NCBI GenBank assembly: GCA_945905815.1
Contig: CAMDQH010000014.1
Span: 1 to 54,259, forward strand
Source of the DNA: Bacteriovorax stolpii
GTDB lineage: Bacteria; Bdellovibrionota; Bacteriovoracia; Bacteriovoracales; Bacteriovoracaceae
Direction of reading: 5' to 3'
Length of the DNA stretch: 54,259 nucleotides
Positions 33,907 to 43,031 of the stretch are shown one piece after another. The notes beneath the pieces were generated by a model. That model was not told where the DNA came from. It ran no database searches and saw nothing but the letters and a program-made list of their open reading frames with translations. Both the position numbers and the translations under genes were made by a program. Positions within the stretch are counted from its first letter, which is position 1, and every line of letters begins with the position of its first letter.

Positions 33907-35241
33907 TCAGGCTACAACTTCATTAATATGAAAGACTTTTCCACGGCCTGATTTTTTCGACATGTACATCATCTTGTCAGCAAATTCGATTATCGACTTC
34001 GCACTATCAGCATCCGAAGGAAATTCAGCGATACCAATAGAAAGAGATAGCCGGTATTTTTTGTCATGATCAATTGAAAACTCTGTTGCTTTAACGGCTT
34101 CAGAAATTCTAACGGCAATCCGTTTGGATTCTTCAAGATTGGACTTCGGTAAGAGTATGATAAACTCATCTCCTCCGTAGCGATAAACTAAGTCTGAAGA
34201 ACGTAACTGTATCTTTAATATCGCGGCCATATCGATCAAAATCTGACTGCCTACGACATGACCAAACTGATCGTTCACGTTTTTAAAATAATCAATATCA
34301 ACAAAAAGTAAGCTAAACACCTGCTTTTCATGTCCATAACGGGAAATGTAGTGTTCCAGATCTTCAACGAGTTTTCTTAGGTTGAACAGGCCGGTCACCT
34401 CATCCGTGAGGGATAGAAGTCGTATCTGATCGATTCTTTTTGATTCAGAAAGAATAGAAAGCGAAGTTTTTAAGACGTTTGAGAGATAATCACTCAAAAT
34501 CTCGTGAATTTTAAAATCAGATGTATTCCGTGCGACAAGAAATGAAAAACCACCTTCGCTTTTTTTTACAAGAAAATGAAATTTGTTTTTATAAAATCGA
34601 AGACCAAAGATCAGACCGCTCGGGTCTTTGATAAATCGAATGATACGTTTGCGCTGAGAATCATTAAGTTTAAATCTTTTTTGTAATTCTTCTTCCAATT
34701 CTTTTTGAGAAGAATAAAACTTATTTTCTTCAATTTGAAAAAACAGGTTCAGATACTGATCTAAACTTGCAGCAATATCTCCAATTGCAGAAAAAATCTC
34801 TGGCCTCGAAAACAAATGAAGAACTGCGCGCTCAGGATTCCACATACCACTCTGAATAACTTCATGTAGCTGGAGTCTGTAAATGATTGTGCGTATTTCA
34901 TGTTCATCAATTGGAAGCGAAAGAAAATCAAAGAGGCCGGCCCTAAAAGCACCAATTATTCCCTGCTGATCCGCTTTTGGAGAAAGCAGGATGATCGCAG
35001 CTTTGGGAAACACTAAGTTGATCTTTCGTACTTCATGAGTCGTCTTTTGACTTTGACGGTTAGAATAAAAAAAGACCGCCCGGACTGATTTTTTCGAATA
35101 AGTATCAATCTCGGTCACATTCTGCAAAAAGCTAATATGATACTTCAATCCATTTTCCTTTAAAGCTTTTTTCATCGCTTCGATTGAAAATGAATCCAAA
35201 TCTATCGCCAATATTTCTAAAAAAGCTTCTTTATTTATCAT
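33907..35241 (-). CDS. Pseudo-receiver-GGDEF diguanylate cyclase
   Basis: 444 residues. The N-terminal ~128 residues have the strand pattern of a response-regulator receiver (ILAIDLD, VRAVFFYS, AAIILLSPKA, FDFLSLPID). The phospho-acceptor Asp at the end of strand 3 is replaced (FFYS) and the Lys of strand 5 is Leu (LSLP), so phosphorylation is unlikely. A linker (about 130-265) precedes a GGDEF domain with an intact active site GGDEF (356-360) and an inhibitory RSSD (347-350), so c-di-GMP synthesis with product inhibition is expected. The start overlaps the preceding stop (TAATG). Confidence 0.9.
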   Translation of the reverse strand: MINKEAFLEILAIDLDSFSIEAMKKALKENGLKYHISFLQNVTEIDTYSKKSVRAVFFYSNRQSQKTTHEVRKINLVFPKAAIILLSPKADQQGIIGAFRAGLFDFLSLPIDEHEIRTIIYRLQLHEVIQSGMWNPERAVLHLFSRPEIFSAIGDIAASLDQYLNLFFQIEENKFYSSQKELEEELQKRFKLNDSQRKRIIRFIKDPSGLIFGLRFYKNKFHFLVKKSEGGFSFLVARNTSDFKIHEILSDYLSNVLKTSLSILSESKRIDQIRLLSLTDEVTGLFNLRKLVEDLEHYISRYGHEKQVFSLLFVDIDYFKNVNDQFGHVVGSQILIDMAAILKIQLRSSDLVYRYGGDEFIILLPKSNLEESKRIAVRISEAVKATEFSIDHDKKYRLSLSIGIAEFPSDADSAKSIIEFADKMMYMSKKSGRGKVFHINEVVA

Positions 35242-37286
35242 TACATATCTATATTTTTCTTTAGGGCTTCCAAGGTTCCGCTTCTCTCTGATTCATCTTC
35301 AAGAACAGTTATTGCATTTCTAAGAGTTTTTAAAGCTTTATCCAGTTTATCCTCTAATTCAAATCGGCTCTCTACCGATCTCTTTTCCTGAACAGAGATT
35401 GATTCAATATCAAATTCCATGGCATCAAGCTTACGTTTCAATTCTAGGATTTTTAAATCCCTGTGACGAATTTGAGATTCTGAATCGGCTTTTAAAAGCT
35501 CAAGCTTCTGCTCAAGCTCTCTTTCCCTCATTTGAACTTTTTTGACATCAATCTTGTTTTTATGTGAAGTTTTATCAAATTCGACGGCCATAATTCGGTT
35601 TTTTTCTTCTAAAATTAACTTTTTCTCTTCAAAAAGTTTCAGCCTATCTTTTAGTTCCGAAACTTCATCGTTTAGTTTTTTTCGTACAATAGAAAGCTCT
35701 ATTTTCTTTTCATCCAATTCAGCTCTCATCGTAAGTGTTTGACGATTCTGAAGAGTCTTGTCCTCTTCAAGTTTTTGAATTTTAGCGATCAATTCTTCAC
35801 GATCAGAGCGTAAATTAGAAATGGTGGCCTGCATGCGCTCCATTTCACCTGTATAAGCGCCTGATATTTCTTTTAAATCTCTCCCCATTGCCCCGTCATA
35901 GGACTCTTTGATTTCTTTGGTCTCTTTAGGCTTTTTCTTGCTCTTCTCTTCGATGATAGGGGCTACAGTTTTTGCTTCCACCGCTTCCTCATCTTCAGAC
36001 GAAAAACTGATACTTCCAAGATCCAGATCATCAGCAACCAGGGACGTATCTATGTCACTATCAGAAGACTCAACTCCAAAGTCTATCGCATCATCATCAC
36101 CGGCTAGAGAGAGGCCAATGTCATCAACCTCATCAGCTGGCGAAAGACTAACCTGAATTCCGGCTTGGGTCGCATCAAAATCCATGATGGCATCAATTTC
36201 TTTTAACTTTTCTTTTGCATCATCAGACAAATCTATATCGTGATTAAGGGTTAGATCATCTGAAAGACTTAATTCATTACTATCATCTAAGGGATCACTC
36301 GATCCGAAATCGAGAGATGGCATTTCATCATCGAGAAGATCTGATGCTAAGGTCGGTGGTTCTGTAGCGTCATCATCCAAAGAAAATCCAAGGTCATCCG
36401 AAGCCGCTAATGAATCATCATCGTCCAAAGACAAACCAGCATCATCTGGAGCAGCTGCTGACAAAGAGGCCGAATCGCCATCATCTAATGAAAAACTAGT
36501 ATCTAAATCAATTTCCATAAAACTTTCTTTGGCCGGAGCATCTTCTGACAACTCATCAGGCTCAGAAAGATCAAGATCCATTTCACTATCTAAGTCTAGA
36601 TCTAGACCTTCTTCTTCCTGTTCAGTTATTTCACCAACCCCATCAGATGTGATTTCCAGTTCACCTAGATCATCCAAAGAAAGTTCTTGGTCTTTATCAC
36701 TCATATCGTCTCCTACTTCTAATTCATCAACTGTAGATTCAGGAACTAAGTTATTGGCTTTTTGCCAGGTCGGCTTTTTCTTTTTTGAACCAAATATTTC
36801 CGAGAAAATTAATTCTAATTCTAGACTCTTAGGGTTTTTGCTAAGGTCATTGAGATCATTTTTAGTCGACATATTATTTCTTGCCACTTGTTGAGTTTCA
36901 AGACGATTACCCCGTTGATTAATTTCCGGAGGCATTAGTCGCTCAACAATAGAATACAATTTGGAAGCTTCAATCTGCATAGGTACATAGGCATCACCTC
37001 CAACCGGAGTCATTTGGTGGGTTTTGAGATCAGGCGCCTTTCCATCTTCTGTAACGTAAATAATTTTGGCCGTACGCAAAGCATCGCGAATAATAAGTAT
37101 TAACTCATCAATAATTTCACGTTTAGTTGTTAAATGGACAAAAAAGTAGGGATCGCCCGAGGGCGAGGATATAATTTGAGACAAGTCTTGTTTCTCTTTA
37201 ATCCAGGTCGCGTCATCCAAAAAATCGTGATTTTTCTGGAAACGTTCCATCTGCTCTGGTTCAAAGCTAATAATGTAGTAAGCCAT
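35241..37286 (-). CDS. Pseudo-receiver/acidic/coiled-coil protein (FrzS/AglZ-like layout)
   Basis: 681 residues in three parts. Residues 1-118 look like a degenerate receiver: YYIISFEPEQ, YFFVHLTTKRE, KIIYVTEDG, then GGDAYVPMQIEASKLYSIVE where the usual Lys-Pro is absent. Residues about 185-440 are extremely Asp/Ser/Leu-rich with recurring [LF]SLDD units (ELSLDD, FSLDDG, LSLDDD, FSLDDD). Residues about 465-675 are a long coiled coil. Receiver-like head plus coiled coil is the layout of Myxococcus FrzS and AglZ, polarity and motility proteins. AAGGAA precedes the ATG. Coupled to the GGDEF gene downstream. Confidence 0.75.
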   Translation of the reverse strand: MAYYIISFEPEQMERFQKNHDFLDDATWIKEKQDLSQIISSPSGDPYFFVHLTTKREIIDELILIIRDALRTAKIIYVTEDGKAPDLKTHQMTPVGGDAYVPMQIEASKLYSIVERLMPPEINQRGNRLETQQVARNNMSTKNDLNDLSKNPKSLELELIFSEIFGSKKKKPTWQKANNLVPESTVDELEVGDDMSDKDQELSLDDLGELEITSDGVGEITEQEEEGLDLDLDSEMDLDLSEPDELSEDAPAKESFMEIDLDTSFSLDDGDSASLSAAAPDDAGLSLDDDDSLAASDDLGFSLDDDATEPPTLASDLLDDEMPSLDFGSSDPLDDSNELSLSDDLTLNHDIDLSDDAKEKLKEIDAIMDFDATQAGIQVSLSPADEVDDIGLSLAGDDDAIDFGVESSDSDIDTSLVADDLDLGSISFSSEDEEAVEAKTVAPIIEEKSKKKPKETKEIKESYDGAMGRDLKEISGAYTGEMERMQATISNLRSDREELIAKIQKLEEDKTLQNRQTLTMRAELDEKKIELSIVRKKLNDEVSELKDRLKLFEEKKLILEEKNRIMAVEFDKTSHKNKIDVKKVQMRERELEQKLELLKADSESQIRHRDLKILELKRKLDAMEFDIESISVQEKRSVESRFELEDKLDKALKTLRNAITVLEDESERSGTLEALKKNIDM

Positions 37287-37427: not shown

Positions 37428-38399
37428 TTGAAAAAAGTAATCGTTACTGCTTTCTTGACTACAATGATCAGTTTTGCGTCCGCTGAGGATTTTTTTCCTT
37501 CCAACATTTTAATGATGGACGAAAAATTTGCACACCATGTAATCCTTGTTGAGAAGGCCACTCACAAAGTTCATCTCTACGAAAATGGTGGAACTAACCC
37601 AAAACTTATTAAGACATACAACACCGCTACCGGAAAATTCAAAGGTGATAAGTCGATCAATGGAGACCACAAAACTCCTGAGGGCATTTACTCAATTAAC
37701 GATTTTTTTTCAAAAGAAGAATTGTTAGGACGCCATGGTAAATATGCAGAAATTTATGGTGCCGGCGCCTTCCCTATGAATTACCCAAACTTCATAGATG
37801 AGAGAGCTGGAAAAACTGGCGGCGGTATTTGGCTTCATTCGACTCATGATGATAATCGAATCTCCAAAGGTCTTGATTCTAAAGGCTGTGTCGTTTTACA
37901 AAATGCAGACTTAAGAGATATTTCTCAGTACATCGAAATTGAACATACCCCCATCATTGTTGTTCAAGATGTTTTATATCTTGCAAGGCCAACTTGGGAT
38001 AGTAACCGAACAGATATCAACGCCGCCGTGGAAAAATGGGCTAAAGCGTGGCAAACAAAGGACTTCGAAACTTATATTTCCAGTTACGACTCTCTAAGGT
38101 TCAAAGATCGTAGCAAGGGGAATTACTCGGCTTACAAGGCTTACAAGAAGGCCGTATTTTCTCGACCAGACTCTCCAAATATTAAGCTCGAATTCATTTC
38201 TATCATGGCAAATCTTGATTATGCCGTCATTCAAATGCAGCAGAATTATCAATCATCAATTATTAACGATATCGGAATGAAAACACTTTATCTGCAAAAA
38301 GACGCAAACTATGAATGGAAAATTGTAGGAGAGCTTTGGTCCAAAGCAGGCCATTCAAGCATTGCCTTTACACCCTCGAAGCGTTTCTTTAAAGATTAG
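37428..38399 (+). CDS. YkuD-type L,D-transpeptidase with C-terminal NTF2-like domain
   Basis: 323 residues from a TTG with GAGGGAGG upstream. Signal peptide ends near FASA (19). The YkuD domain (about 36-178) has the catalytic pair His137 (WLHSTHDD) and Cys154 (SKGCVVL), matching HxSHGC with Lys for His. The family uses the Cys to make or break meso-DAP crosslinks or attach proteins to peptidoglycan. A C-terminal ~120-residue NTF2/SnoaL-like domain (AAVEKWAKAWQTKDFETYIS...) is typical of YafK-like proteins. First of three plus-strand genes ending in a bactofilin. Confidence 0.9.
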   Translation: MKKVIVTAFLTTMISFASAEDFFPSNILMMDEKFAHHVILVEKATHKVHLYENGGTNPKLIKTYNTATGKFKGDKSINGDHKTPEGIYSINDFFSKEELLGRHGKYAEIYGAGAFPMNYPNFIDERAGKTGGGIWLHSTHDDNRISKGLDSKGCVVLQNADLRDISQYIEIEHTPIIVVQDVLYLARPTWDSNRTDINAAVEKWAKAWQTKDFETYISSYDSLRFKDRSKGNYSAYKAYKKAVFSRPDSPNIKLEFISIMANLDYAVIQMQQNYQSSIINDIGMKTLYLQKDANYEWKIVGELWSKAGHSSIAFTPSKRFFKD

Positions 38400-38402
38400 A
38401 TT

Positions 38403-39149
38403 ATGAAAGAACCTATACAGCAAATTGGACAAGAAGTTTCCATCGTCATTTATGATTCGCCCCTCCCACCAAGGTACTTAAGGTTTTCAAAGAAATTTAT
38501 CCGCACCCTGTTTATTGTAGCTCCTGTTTTACTAGGCCTTATATTTATAACTCTCCTGCTTATTATTTTCGGAACAAAACTTAAGGAAACGCCTGCACCA
38601 AACCTATCAACAGTTTTGAGTGATGAAGAAAGCAAGGTTACTTCTCTCGAATCTGATATAAAATCTCTCCAAGTAAGTAATCAACAACTTCAAGACAAAC
38701 TTTCTGGTCAGGGAACGGTCGCCGCCAATCAGGACGAACCTTTCTTAATGGGTATAAAAAAACCGTACGGAATGCAAAACCTGATTCAAGAGAACAAAGT
38801 ATCTCTCGATCAGTTTGAATTGGTTCAAGATCAAAATAAGACTAGTTTGAAATTTCAGATTATTAGCAACGATACTGAAACCAAAGTTTCGGGGCATGTT
38901 TTGGTCTTTATGATTTCAGAAAGTGGAATGATGGCCTACCCAGCCGAATCAAACACTTCAATTGGCGGAGGAGTAAAATTCTCGATGGGAGAGCCATTTT
39001 CTGTATCTAGACTGCGCCCAACAAATGCTGAATTTCTTCACAGCCTAACTGGAAGCACCGTTAAGTTTGTAATCTATATCTTCTCAAGAGAAGGGGATCT
39101 CCTTCTTATAAAAGAAACTGAATCCTATAAAGTGGGAGATAAATCTTGA
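38403..39149 (+). CDS. Single-span membrane protein with periplasmic coiled coil
   Basis: 248 residues. A short cytoplasmic N-terminus with a basic patch (RYLRFSKKFIR) precedes one span (about 34-56, LFIVAPVLLGLIFITLLLIIF). A short coiled coil follows (about 72-98, ESKVTSLESDIKSLQVSNQQ), then a beta-rich exported domain (about 130-245). Begins 3 bp after the transpeptidase stop and ends overlapping the bactofilin start (TTGA). No family recognised. The position suggests a link between a cytoplasmic bactofilin and a periplasmic wall enzyme. Confidence 0.7.
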   Translation: MKEPIQQIGQEVSIVIYDSPLPPRYLRFSKKFIRTLFIVAPVLLGLIFITLLLIIFGTKLKETPAPNLSTVLSDEESKVTSLESDIKSLQVSNQQLQDKLSGQGTVAANQDEPFLMGIKKPYGMQNLIQENKVSLDQFELVQDQNKTSLKFQIISNDTETKVSGHVLVFMISESGMMAYPAESNTSIGGGVKFSMGEPFSVSRLRPTNAEFLHSLTGSTVKFVIYIFSREGDLLLIKETESYKVGDKS

Positions 39150-39496
39150 TTAACGACAATGACTTTAGACACTTCAATTACAATGTCCTAGGAGTAAAAT
39201 CGAAGGTCGTAGGTGATCTTATATTAAGCGGTGATGCCATAATCACCTCTTCTGTTGAAGGCAGCATAGAAGTTATTGATACAGGAAAACTCGTTTTAGA
39301 GCGTGGCTCTTTCATTAAGGGTAAAATCAAGGCAATTGATCTTGAAATTTTCGGCGATGTCGAAGGTGAGATTGTGTGTAGTGGTTTAGTGTCGATACGA
39401 TCAAGTGGAAGAGTGACTGGCTCAATACAATCGGCACGTTTAGTTGTTTACCCGGGAGCGATTGTCGAAATGACAGCTCACTCCCAGGAAACTTAA
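39146..39496 (+). CDS. Bactofilin (polymer-forming cytoskeletal protein)
   Basis: 116 residues from a TTG overlapping the preceding stop, with GTGGGAG upstream. The repeating beta-helix pattern VVGDLILSGDAIITSSVEGSIEV, then GKLVLERGSFIKGKI..IFGDVEGEIVCSGLVSIRSSGRVTGSI, is diagnostic of the DUF583/bactofilin right-handed beta-helix that polymerises without nucleotide. Bactofilins position peptidoglycan enzymes and shape cells in Caulobacter, Myxococcus and Helicobacter. The operon with an L,D-transpeptidase supports a wall-shaping role. Confidence 0.9.
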   Translation: MINDNDFRHFNYNVLGVKSKVVGDLILSGDAIITSSVEGSIEVIDTGKLVLERGSFIKGKIKAIDLEIFGDVEGEIVCSGLVSIRSSGRVTGSIQSARLVVYPGAIVEMTAHSQET

Positions 39497-39497
39497 T

Positions 39498-40850
39498 TTA
39501 CAAATAATCCTTATATTTTAGAATTCTTACAGGTCTAATTCTGGAGAGACTCTTCTCAAGACTTTTATCTCCAACTACTACAATCGTCATACGATCCCAG
39601 GGAAATGCTTCAAGATTAGTCTGAGAAAGTGCCTCTGGAGTAAGTGAAGCAATATTATCTGGAAAATTTACGAGTTCCTGAAGATTTCTTCCCTGATGGT
39701 CATAAAGCATGATCTGAGAGAGAAAGGCATTTGTTTCTTCAAAACCAAAAGCAAATCCCCCAATCTGATGACCTTGCTGGTGCTTGAATTCTTCCGGAGT
39801 AATTTTTTTCGCAGATATGTCCTGGAAAATATCTCTTACGAGAGAGATCACCTCTGCTGCAGATTCATTTTTCGAGAAGGTCATAATTCCGGCACGACCA
39901 TAATCCCTCTGCATGGAAACGTAAGCACCTGCAGAATAAGTAAGCCCTCTTTTAACTCGTAGTTCCTGAACCAGTTTAGAAGTAAAGCCACCACCTAAGA
40001 AACCAGCGAGGAAGCTGAAGTGATCATACTTGCCCTTTATTTCATCTGGAATAACGTAGCGGCCAATTCGAATCTGGGCCTGGTTTGCGCCCTGAACTGG
40101 AACCAGAAAAATGGCCGACTGAGGGGAAGGTTTTTTCAAGACTAATTTCTCAGAAACTGATCCAGTGGTCCATTTACATTTATTAGCGATGATCTCTTTC
40201 AATTTAAAAATTTCTGATGGCCCGGTTAAATAAAGAACTTTTTTAGAATGATTGAGTTCAGACAATCGCTCCTTCAGTCCATTAGGATTCAATTTATCAA
40301 AGGTCGCAAGAGTTCCCTCTACTGGGATTGCATAGGGCGTCTCAATCAGTGAAATTTGTCTAAAAATGCGATCAGCAAGTGACGAATGTGATGTAACAAG
40401 ATTTTTAAGCTGACTCTTTGAGCGACTAATATAAGAAAAAAGTTCTTTTTGGGGATACTGAGCATCATTAAATAGCTCACAGACTTTACTCATGACAGGC
40501 CCAATATCTTTTGTCAGACCTTGAACCGTATAAACAGAGTACTCATGAGTTACAGAGTTTTTAAGATTAACTCCATAAAAATCAAAAAACTCAGAAATCT
40601 CTCTTTGAGATTCTTTCGAAGTACCTGAGGCAATTTGGTCAAATGTTCCAGAAGTTAATCCTGAAAATGGATCACTTAAAGAGCCATCTTGAAAATAAAT
40701 GGCTGCATTGAAACGAGGAAATTTACTATCTTCAATCCAGACAACATCAAGGTTTCCCCACTTCATTCTTTTAACGGAATCAAGAAAAGTTGCTCCAAAC
40801 GCAGCAGTTGATAAAAGTAATAATAGGGAAATCGAAAGTATGTTTTTCAT
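39498..40850 (-). CDS. M16-family peptidase homologue, catalytically inactive partner
   Basis: 450 residues from the ATG at 40850 (signal peptide MKNILSISLLLLLSTAAFG). A GTG at 40862 overlapping the upstream stop is the alternative start. It has the two-lobed M16 layout, but where HxxEH belongs it reads GLTSGTFDQIASGT, so the zinc site is gone. It keeps the substrate-binding R..RGLTYSAGAYV element in the second half. Paired M16 genes, one active and one inactive, commonly form a heterodimer; the upstream gene supplies the active subunit. Periplasmic by its signal peptide. Confidence 0.88.
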   Translation of the reverse strand: MKNILSISLLLLLSTAAFGATFLDSVKRMKWGNLDVVWIEDSKFPRFNAAIYFQDGSLSDPFSGLTSGTFDQIASGTSKESQREISEFFDFYGVNLKNSVTHEYSVYTVQGLTKDIGPVMSKVCELFNDAQYPQKELFSYISRSKSQLKNLVTSHSSLADRIFRQISLIETPYAIPVEGTLATFDKLNPNGLKERLSELNHSKKVLYLTGPSEIFKLKEIIANKCKWTTGSVSEKLVLKKPSPQSAIFLVPVQGANQAQIRIGRYVIPDEIKGKYDHFSFLAGFLGGGFTSKLVQELRVKRGLTYSAGAYVSMQRDYGRAGIMTFSKNESAAEVISLVRDIFQDISAKKITPEEFKHQQGHQIGGFAFGFEETNAFLSQIMLYDHQGRNLQELVNFPDNIASLTPEALSQTNLEAFPWDRMTIVVVGDKSLEKSLSRIRPVRILKYKDYL

Positions 40851-40858
40851 AATAATTC

Positions 40859-42205
40859 TCACTTATGCATGTTCCAGACAGAGACAAAAACACTTGGTTT
40901 AACAAAAGTTTCTTTGCAGAGGGCCTTCACATCATTAACAGTAACCTTTTCGTACATATCAAGTTCTTGTTTATAGAAGCGCCAGTCGTTAAAAACAATT
41001 TGTCTTTCACCTAGAAAAGATCCTAATCCGGCATTTGTATCAAGACCACCATAGAGACCAGTAAGGTAATTATTTTTTACTTTTTGGATACTACGTTCGC
41101 TAACCTCTGAATCACAAAATCCATTTAGATTTTTAAGCAGATCCTGGCGAAACTCTGGAAGCTTAACTCCCCGAACCAGTTCTCCGCCAATAAAGAAAAA
41201 GCCAGATTTATCCAAAGATTGATGTGCAGAATACATCGAGGTCGCAATCGGTTTTTCGATAAGTATATATTGATTAACCAGCGAAGCACTCTTACCTGAA
41301 CCAATAATCGAAGAAAGAACATCCAGTGCATAACCTTTAATGTGACCGGCCTTATATGTAGGAAATGCCAACATGAAAATTGGGTTTGGTGACTCTCCCT
41401 TCTTGGCCACTGTTTGGTCTACTTTCCACTTAGGAACGAAGTCCTCGTCTTTTAATTCCTTATGAGCCTCTTCTACCGATGGAGAAGAAGGAATCTTTCC
41501 AAACTTCTCTTGAATCATGGCCTTGGCCTTATAAACGTCAATATCACCAACAAGAACTAAAGTTGCATTATTTGGAGCGTAGAAACGCTTGAAGTATTTA
41601 TAGATCTGCTCACGGGTAACTGATTTAAGATCAGGAATATCACCAATCACTGAACGACCGTATGGCGTTCCTTTATAAAGAGTTTGCATCATCTCAAGAT
41701 AAAGCTGACCGCGCGGAGAATTCTCATAGCGCATTTTTCTTTCTTCTAAAACGACTTCCCTTTCCTTGTTGAAAGCTTCTAGGTCGAGAAGGAGGTTTTC
41801 CATTCTGTCTGATTCAATATCAATAATTTTCTCAAGTTCTGTTGAAGGCAAATTTTCATAATAAACAGTCTGATCATTTGTCGTATAGGCATTCGTCGAT
41901 CCCCCACTTCCTTCAATAATGAAGTCCATGGTGTTGCTTCCATATTTCTTTGCTCCTTTAAACATCATGTGCTCAAGAAAGTGACTTGCGCCAGTGATTC
42001 CCGGAACTTCATTTTTTCCACCAACTTTATAAAAGAGCTGTAGAGAAAAAATTGGCAACTTCGGATTGCTGACAATCAAAGCAGTCAAACCATTATCAAG
42101 TTTTAATTCCTCTACATCTATGTGGATGTTGCTAGAAAGTGTTTTATTTTCTTTCACTGAAGAACAGCCCATGAGCAGGGCGAATAGCGCTAACCAGAAT
42201 TTCAT
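40859..42205 (-). CDS. M16-family zinc peptidase lipoprotein, active subunit
   Basis: 448 residues from ATG 42205 with AGGAT upstream. A longer reading to 42337 exists but lies inside the divergent gene and lacks a signal sequence, so it is rejected. Signal peptide ends with lipobox LLMGC (Cys14), giving a membrane-anchored periplasmic enzyme. The zinc motif is HFLEH (His75, Glu78, His79), with the more distal Glu in the following helix region. Degrades peptides; likely partner of the inactive homologue directly downstream (4-bp overlap if GTG is used). Confidence 0.92.
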   Translation of the reverse strand: MKFWLALFALLMGCSSVKENKTLSSNIHIDVEELKLDNGLTALIVSNPKLPIFSLQLFYKVGGKNEVPGITGASHFLEHMMFKGAKKYGSNTMDFIIEGSGGSTNAYTTNDQTVYYENLPSTELEKIIDIESDRMENLLLDLEAFNKEREVVLEERKMRYENSPRGQLYLEMMQTLYKGTPYGRSVIGDIPDLKSVTREQIYKYFKRFYAPNNATLVLVGDIDVYKAKAMIQEKFGKIPSSPSVEEAHKELKDEDFVPKWKVDQTVAKKGESPNPIFMLAFPTYKAGHIKGYALDVLSSIIGSGKSASLVNQYILIEKPIATSMYSAHQSLDKSGFFFIGGELVRGVKLPEFRQDLLKNLNGFCDSEVSERSIQKVKNNYLTGLYGGLDTNAGLGSFLGERQIVFNDWRFYKQELDMYEKVTVNDVKALCKETFVKPSVFVSVWNMHK

Positions 42206-42221
42206 AGTAACATCCTCATTG

Positions 42222-43031
42222 ATGAACAAGATCACGATTTTAGGTTCAGGTACAAGTACAGGTGTTCCTATTTTAGGGTGTAACTGCTCTATTTGCCAAT
42301 CAATCGATCCAAGAAATAAACGTCTCCGAACTTCCATACTTCTTGAAACAGATCAGGCAAAAAATATCCTTATTGATGCATCACCCGATCTTAGAACTCA
42401 GTTACTTCGTACCAAAACGAACAGACTGGATGCCGTTATTATTACTCATGATCATGCAGATCATACGCATGGTGTAGATGATTTGCGTCCTTTCAGTTTT
42501 AAAAATTCTTCACCTCTTCCATTGTTCGCTGATCTTTATGCCCTCGATTCATTGACTATCAAGTTTCCCTATATTTTCCAAAGGGAAAAAGTATTTGCTG
42601 ATAAACCTATCATCGGCGGCGGTATCCCTCTTCTGGATTTGCATCCACTACTTCCCGGAGCCAACCTCGTTGCCAATGAAACTTTTCATTTTGAGGCACT
42701 TCCTCATGGTCATGGGGAATCTCTTTGTTTTATTCATAAAAAATTTGGCTACATGATTGATTGCAGAGAAATTCCTGAATTAGTGATAGAAAAGTTTCGT
42801 GACGCTAAGCTTGAAATTCTTATTATAGACTGCCTAAGATATGAACCTCATCAAACTCATCTCCATCTTGATCTCGCTCTTAAATATATTCAAGAAATCG
42901 CACCCAAGACCGCTATTCTCACCCACATGGGTCATGAATTGGACTATCTTGACCTGACTAAAGAACTACAGAAACGGGGCAGCAGGAATGTCTTTCCTGC
43001 TGTAGATGGCCAGAGCTTCCTCTATTCTTAA
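42222..43031 (+). CDS. PhnP-like MBL-fold phosphodiesterase
   Basis: 269 residues from ATG 42222. N-terminal ILGSGTSTGVPILGC followed by CxCxxC (Cys20, 22, 25) and the metal motif THDHADH (His76, His78, Asp80, His81) match the PhnP/cyclic-phosphate phosphodiesterase branch, in which the Cys cluster binds a structural zinc. No phosphonate genes are nearby, so the substrate is open. No Shine-Dalgarno precedes the ATG. The start is only 16 bp from the divergent peptidase start, so leaderless or very short-leader expression is likely. Confidence 0.88.
   Translation: MNKITILGSGTSTGVPILGCNCSICQSIDPRNKRLRTSILLETDQAKNILIDASPDLRTQLLRTKTNRLDAVIITHDHADHTHGVDDLRPFSFKNSSPLPLFADLYALDSLTIKFPYIFQREKVFADKPIIGGGIPLLDLHPLLPGANLVANETFHFEALPHGHGESLCFIHKKFGYMIDCREIPELVIEKFRDAKLEILIIDCLRYEPHQTHLHLDLALKYIQEIAPKTAILTHMGHELDYLDLTKELQKRGSRNVFPAVDGQSFLYS

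Follow-up and report, generated by a model that had tools for sequence, protein, structure and literature searches.

Three consecutive rightwards-transcribed genes of Bacteriovorax stolpii (Bacteriovoracaceae) encode a secreted peptidoglycan enzyme, a bitopic membrane protein and a bactofilin, raising the question of whether the three act as one device across the envelope and what such a device would do to the cell wall. The window, i.e. the whole stretch of 54,259 nucleotides analysed (contig CAMDQH010000014.1), belongs to a 3.0 Mb genome. Gene 1 (37428–38399) encodes a protein with YkuD and NTF2-like domains that is assigned by domain and sequence matches to the LD-carboxypeptidase type (Bd1075/Csd6/Pgp2 family), gene 2 (38403–39149) a bitopic adaptor of an unnamed family recognised from profiles and predicted structure, and gene 3 (39146–39496) a bactofilin. 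Genes 1 and 2 are separated by 3 bp and genes 2 and 3 overlap by 4 bp (5′-TTGA); counts of putative terminators and promoters within the trio are not clearly above those of shuffled sequences. Outside the trio are two conserved flanks, a divergent leftwards-transcribed gene for an acidic coiled-coil protein (35241–37286) and a convergent, leftwards-transcribed pair of M16 peptidase genes (39498–42337). The leftwards-transcribed region 33907–37286, which encodes the acidic coiled-coil protein together with a GGDEF protein, is syntenic in several families and could contain regulators.

The sequence-only reading had taken these closely spaced or overlapping same-strand genes as one operon and had named conservation of the trio as one check, and both hold well beyond the window. 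All 77 distinct complete loci of the family have the order enzyme–adaptor–bactofilin on one strand and are tightly spaced (median 2 bp between enzyme and adaptor, 0 bp between adaptor and bactofilin), more than expected by chance. The trio is present in about 115 of 129 Bacteriovoracaceae genomes; enzyme and adaptor are each found in 115/129 genomes and in 45 of the 48 genera, and among well-assembled genomes each is found in 70/73, the same three genomes lacking both. Adaptor relatives in a named collection (a single-protein scan, 7 named loci) come from Halobacteriovorax sp., Bacteriovoracaceae MAGs and one record titled Bdellovibrio sp. The trio is usually flanked by divergent genes for the coiled-coil protein and a GGDEF protein and, on the other side, by the convergent M16 pair, and this wider synteny would fit a gene order kept only through slow rearrangement of the whole region, with no functional link. 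However, the trio is intact where its flanks have moved or inverted (L083, L088 and L094), its reading frames overlap, and it has been excised as a unit between flanks that were kept, such that this explanation is barely credible.

The excision is seen in genus g28, in which no enzyme, no adaptor and no bactofilin of any kind are left, while MreB is retained. In three g28 genomes (L257, L258 and L259) the M16 pair and the coiled-coil gene still adjoin at the locus with the trio gone from between them. The genus thus shows loss of the trio as a unit, and represents one evolutionary event. Kept together across the family and once lost together, the three genes therefore very likely constitute one cell-shaping unit.

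The activity of the enzyme is central to what this unit would do. Gene 1 starts with TTG preceded by GGAGG, and its N-terminus resembles a signal peptide. Pfam searches reveal a catalytic YkuD domain (8e-18; residues 37–178, coordinates 37536–37961) followed by a C-terminal NTF2-like Cds6_C domain (4e-18; residues 197–302, coordinates 38016–38333). Its best solved relative by phmmer is 7O21 (E-value 3e-50, over both domains), which is Bd1075 of Bdellovibrio bacteriovorus (PMC8938487), and further structure matches are Pgp2 (7e-27) and Csd6 (2e-23). H137, C154 and V156 are invariant in an alignment of 22 diverse family members, and in all 22 the valine replaces the arginine that transpeptidases carry two residues past the catalytic cysteine; Bd1075 has V158 at this position (PMC8938487). 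Bd1075 was at first predicted to be a transpeptidase and then proved to be an LD-carboxypeptidase whose substrate is the wall of the predator itself; it is found on one side of the cell, which it curves, and its NTF2 domain, including W303, places it on the convex side (PMC8938487). An aromatic residue (W or F) is mostly kept at the W303 position in relatives of gene 1. The two proteins thus share the YkuD and NTF2-like architecture, the V158-type active site, about 36% identity and, mostly, the C-terminal tryptophan, although bd1075 is monocistronic in a genome with neither an adaptor nor a partner bactofilin.

Because of its architecture, its match to Bd1075 and V156, gene 1 most plausibly encodes an LD-carboxypeptidase, and its product very likely trims tetrapeptides. 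The sequence-only reading had described it as a peptidoglycan crosslinker, an L,D-transpeptidase held by the bactofilin through a linker. A YkuD domain with a His/Cys active site is compatible with this, but the Cds6_C domain, Bd1075 as best match, and valine for arginine in 22/22 aligned members all point away from it, as does the finding that the relatives Bd1075, Csd6 and Pgp2 are all LD-carboxypeptidases (PMC8938487). A classical crosslinking transpeptidase is rejected on domain make-up and active-site motif (V, not Arg), and the crosslinking account as a whole is highly improbable. Editing of the prey wall, also suggested earlier, is unlikely because Bd1075, the closest studied relative, acts on the predator's own wall.

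It is fairly likely that the unit acts on shape or curvature. The operon could instead serve polarity, motility or division under the neighbouring GGDEF and coiled-coil genes, which are long-standing divergent neighbours, and motility and chromosome organisation are among the roles of bactofilins. However, the coiled-coil gene is retained in the genus that lost the trio, and those relatives of the enzyme that have been studied act on shape, making such a role improbable.

The adaptor has no Pfam or NCBIfam match above the family cut-offs, and its relatives (46 family members, Pfam) match no described family consistently. A structure predicted from eight sequences (mean pLDDT 72) contains, from the N-terminus, a cytoplasmic beta-hairpin (residues 11–29, coordinates 38433–38489) with strands at 11–18 and 21–29, this part being of low confidence (pLDDT about 50–56); a membrane helix (residues 30–59, coordinates 38490–38579); a coiled-coil helix (residues 74–101, coordinates 38622–38705); and a well-predicted periplasmic Ig/FN3-like beta-sandwich (residues 133–238, coordinates 38799–39116) with the conserved motif GE.F...RFRP / IFSR.GDL. 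The prediction agrees with the earlier description of a single-span protein with a periplasmic domain, and adds a cytoplasmic one. A PDB fold search with the whole model gives no specific relative; the beta-domain matches only generic folds of the Ig/FN3 type, at low TM-scores. Pfam reveals no SH3 domain, the domain present being of the Ig/FN3 beta-sandwich type, and no M23 peptidase domain, which is also not common to the 46 family members.

The hairpin resembles a described element. In the bactofilin–LmdC module of Hyphomonas and Rhodospirillum (PMC10945521) a bactofilin is likewise encoded beside a bitopic protein with a cytoplasmic beta-hairpin, and the wall-cutting enzyme is periplasmic. 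The LmdC hairpin is required for recruitment of BacA, hairpin mutations abolish recruitment by the bactofilin, and the R25-H26-L27 cluster is in the first strand (PMC10945521). The LmdC-type M23 peptidases of the genomes studied here, including that of the window's genome, start with a hairpin, membrane helix and coil as in gene 2, and comparison of the adaptor profile with their N-terminal profile scores 26.8, as against 13.0±2.1 (maximum 20.3) for 200 shuffles of the cytosolic columns (0/200 as high). The best whole-genome adaptor matches in two linker-less genomes (G251 and G220) are M23 peptidases, with similarity that extends over the hairpin, the membrane helix and the coiled coil. On the model and the profile comparison, the hairpin is the proposed bactofilin-binding element, and it probably binds the bactofilin of the trio. 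Gene 2 is not itself an LmdC, because it lacks the M23 peptidase domain; the bitopic protein of the trio is non-catalytic, and the enzyme, whose predicted activity differs (LD-carboxypeptidase), is encoded by a gene of its own. An M23 peptidase was also considered as an enzyme that the operon might lack and was rejected, with hairpin-bearing M23 proteins encoded elsewhere in the genome and none at the locus. The LmdC-type M23 peptidase with a cytoplasmic hairpin in the window's genome (G000:C2, L235) is on a contig different from those of both bactofilin genes and is a possible second client.

Gene 3 contains a Bactofilin domain (PF04519, a beta-helix; 4e-17, above cut-off), and it and the other trio bactofilins whose N-termini were inspected lack the MFSKKKK-type membrane-targeting motif, which is common but not universal. 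Its absence is as expected if a client anchors the bactofilin; in Caulobacter, an overproduced client can replace the bactofilin membrane motif. Bactofilins of the trio and of the adaptor–bactofilin pairs described below form one clade (support 0.97), apart from those located at parAB/ATP synthase loci (support 0.96). The window's genome has a second bactofilin between parAB and ATP synthase genes (G000:C6:43964-44245, L004), and a distant genome (G330, contigs C104, C155, C165, C217 and C43) encodes several long proteins with weak bactofilin-like repeats.

Beyond the Bacteriovoracaceae, profile searches reveal the adaptor in further families and in further classes of its phylum. In families f20–f27 it is directly upstream of a bactofilin in 19/19 fetched loci, mostly between the same flanks, and the enzyme is not at the locus; by our own count, the enzyme is encoded elsewhere in 49 of 55 adaptor-bearing genomes of these families and was not seen in the remaining six. 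A genome of family f17 has all three genes at the locus, and in f29 the bactofilin gene follows that of a full-length, diverged adaptor. Since adaptor and bactofilin are always paired and the enzyme is often elsewhere, the stable core is adaptor plus bactofilin, the enzyme gene belonging to the operon in f17 and in the family of the window.

Bdellovibrio itself is organised differently. HD100, taken to be genome G132 from a 100% match to the 7O21 sequence in a whole-genome search, has the enzyme but no adaptor, and its sole bactofilin is of the parAB/ATP-synthase-locus type; the weak adaptor-profile matches inspected in Bdellovibrio are coiled coils or unrelated proteins. An enzyme of this type therefore does not generally need these partners, and the earlier framing of the trio as a feature of Bdellovibrio-type cells does not fit. 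At the HD100 locus (L204:6566-11167), bd1075 is flanked on one side by a FliL gene and an M16 pair and on the other by unrelated genes. An M16 pair beside both bd1075 and the trio hints at a common ancestral neighbourhood.

The operon structure, the domain composition, the co-conservation and joint loss of the genes and the similarity of the hairpins are read directly from sequence, and they suggest the following mechanism. Bactofilin filaments beneath the inner membrane would hold the adaptor by its cytoplasmic beta-hairpin; the adaptor would span the membrane, pair through its coiled coil and present its beta-sandwich in the periplasm, where it would position or regulate the Bd1075-type LD-carboxypeptidase. 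The carboxypeptidase would then shorten tetrapeptides of the cell's own wall to tripeptides within one zone of the cell, producing curvature. That the three genes encode one envelope-spanning shape unit working in this way is, on balance, the favoured reading. A putative direct contact between the periplasmic domain of the adaptor and the enzyme is more tentative. The lone HD100 enzyme speaks against this contact and against the unit as a whole, as does work on Helicobacter pylori in which no interaction of the related enzyme Csd6 with the bactofilin or the membrane partners of the bactofilin was found (PMC9507126). Also counting against the unit are the off-locus enzyme genes of other classes, the adaptor-bearing genomes without an enzyme, the low confidence of the hairpin model, the persistence of this hairpin type on an M23 peptidase in the bactofilin-free genus g28, and the fact that the co-loss is a single event.

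The main rival draws on similar observations. Adaptor and bactofilin could form a pair like Csd5 and CcmA, whose tasks would be to anchor the bactofilin and to bring in wall synthesis or other factors; the carboxypeptidase would merely be co-expressed for the same process and sited by its own NTF2 domain. Consistent with this, the pairing persists where the enzyme is elsewhere, adaptors lacking an enzyme at the locus share the conserved periplasmic motif, the HD100 enzyme works alone (PMC8938487), and Csd5 brings CcmA to the envelope while Csd6 is not seen in CcmA complexes (PMC9507126). However, the enzyme is inside the operon family-wide with a median spacing of 2 bp and is lost with the trio as a unit, and we regard this rival as possible though rather unlikely. 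A specific form of the favoured shape unit is a split bactofilin–hydrolase module. Here a dedicated family of non-catalytic adaptors would stand in for the M23 domain found in LmdC, retain the hairpin that binds the bactofilin and provide a docking site for a separately encoded LD-carboxypeptidase. The scaffold in the cytoplasm would thereby determine on which side the wall is trimmed; this version is put forward only tentatively.

Pairing of bactofilins with hydrolases is already known, mostly with M23 peptidases. The Helicobacter CcmA–Csd5/Csd7–Csd1 complex with Csd6 (PMC9507126) also combines a bactofilin, non-enzymatic membrane proteins and an LD-carboxypeptidase, all needed for shape, but Csd5, found only in Helicobacter, contains an SH3 domain, Csd6 is not a known member of the complex (PMC9507126), and no operon like the trio is reported in the Helicobacter complex literature examined. 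Searches of open-licence papers linking bactofilins with LD-carboxypeptidases, Bdellovibrio or Bacteriovorax turned up no account of the trio operon, and none was found describing a module of bactofilin, YkuD enzyme and linker, in agreement with the sequence-only reading, which did not know it as an established module. The trio is a variation on the known bactofilin–hydrolase module with a new adaptor family, and seems undescribed.

The operon names a protein family with a mutable candidate binding element in Halobacteriovorax-like bacteria. It also offers a natural comparison among relatives that carry the trio, Bdellovibrio, which has only the enzyme, and genus g28, which has none of the three, g28 being a natural test case for cell shape, with MreB kept and the trio and all bactofilins lost. 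If the split module is correct, a curvature enzyme would be targeted laterally by a mechanism that spans the envelope and that Bdellovibrio would have replaced or lost.
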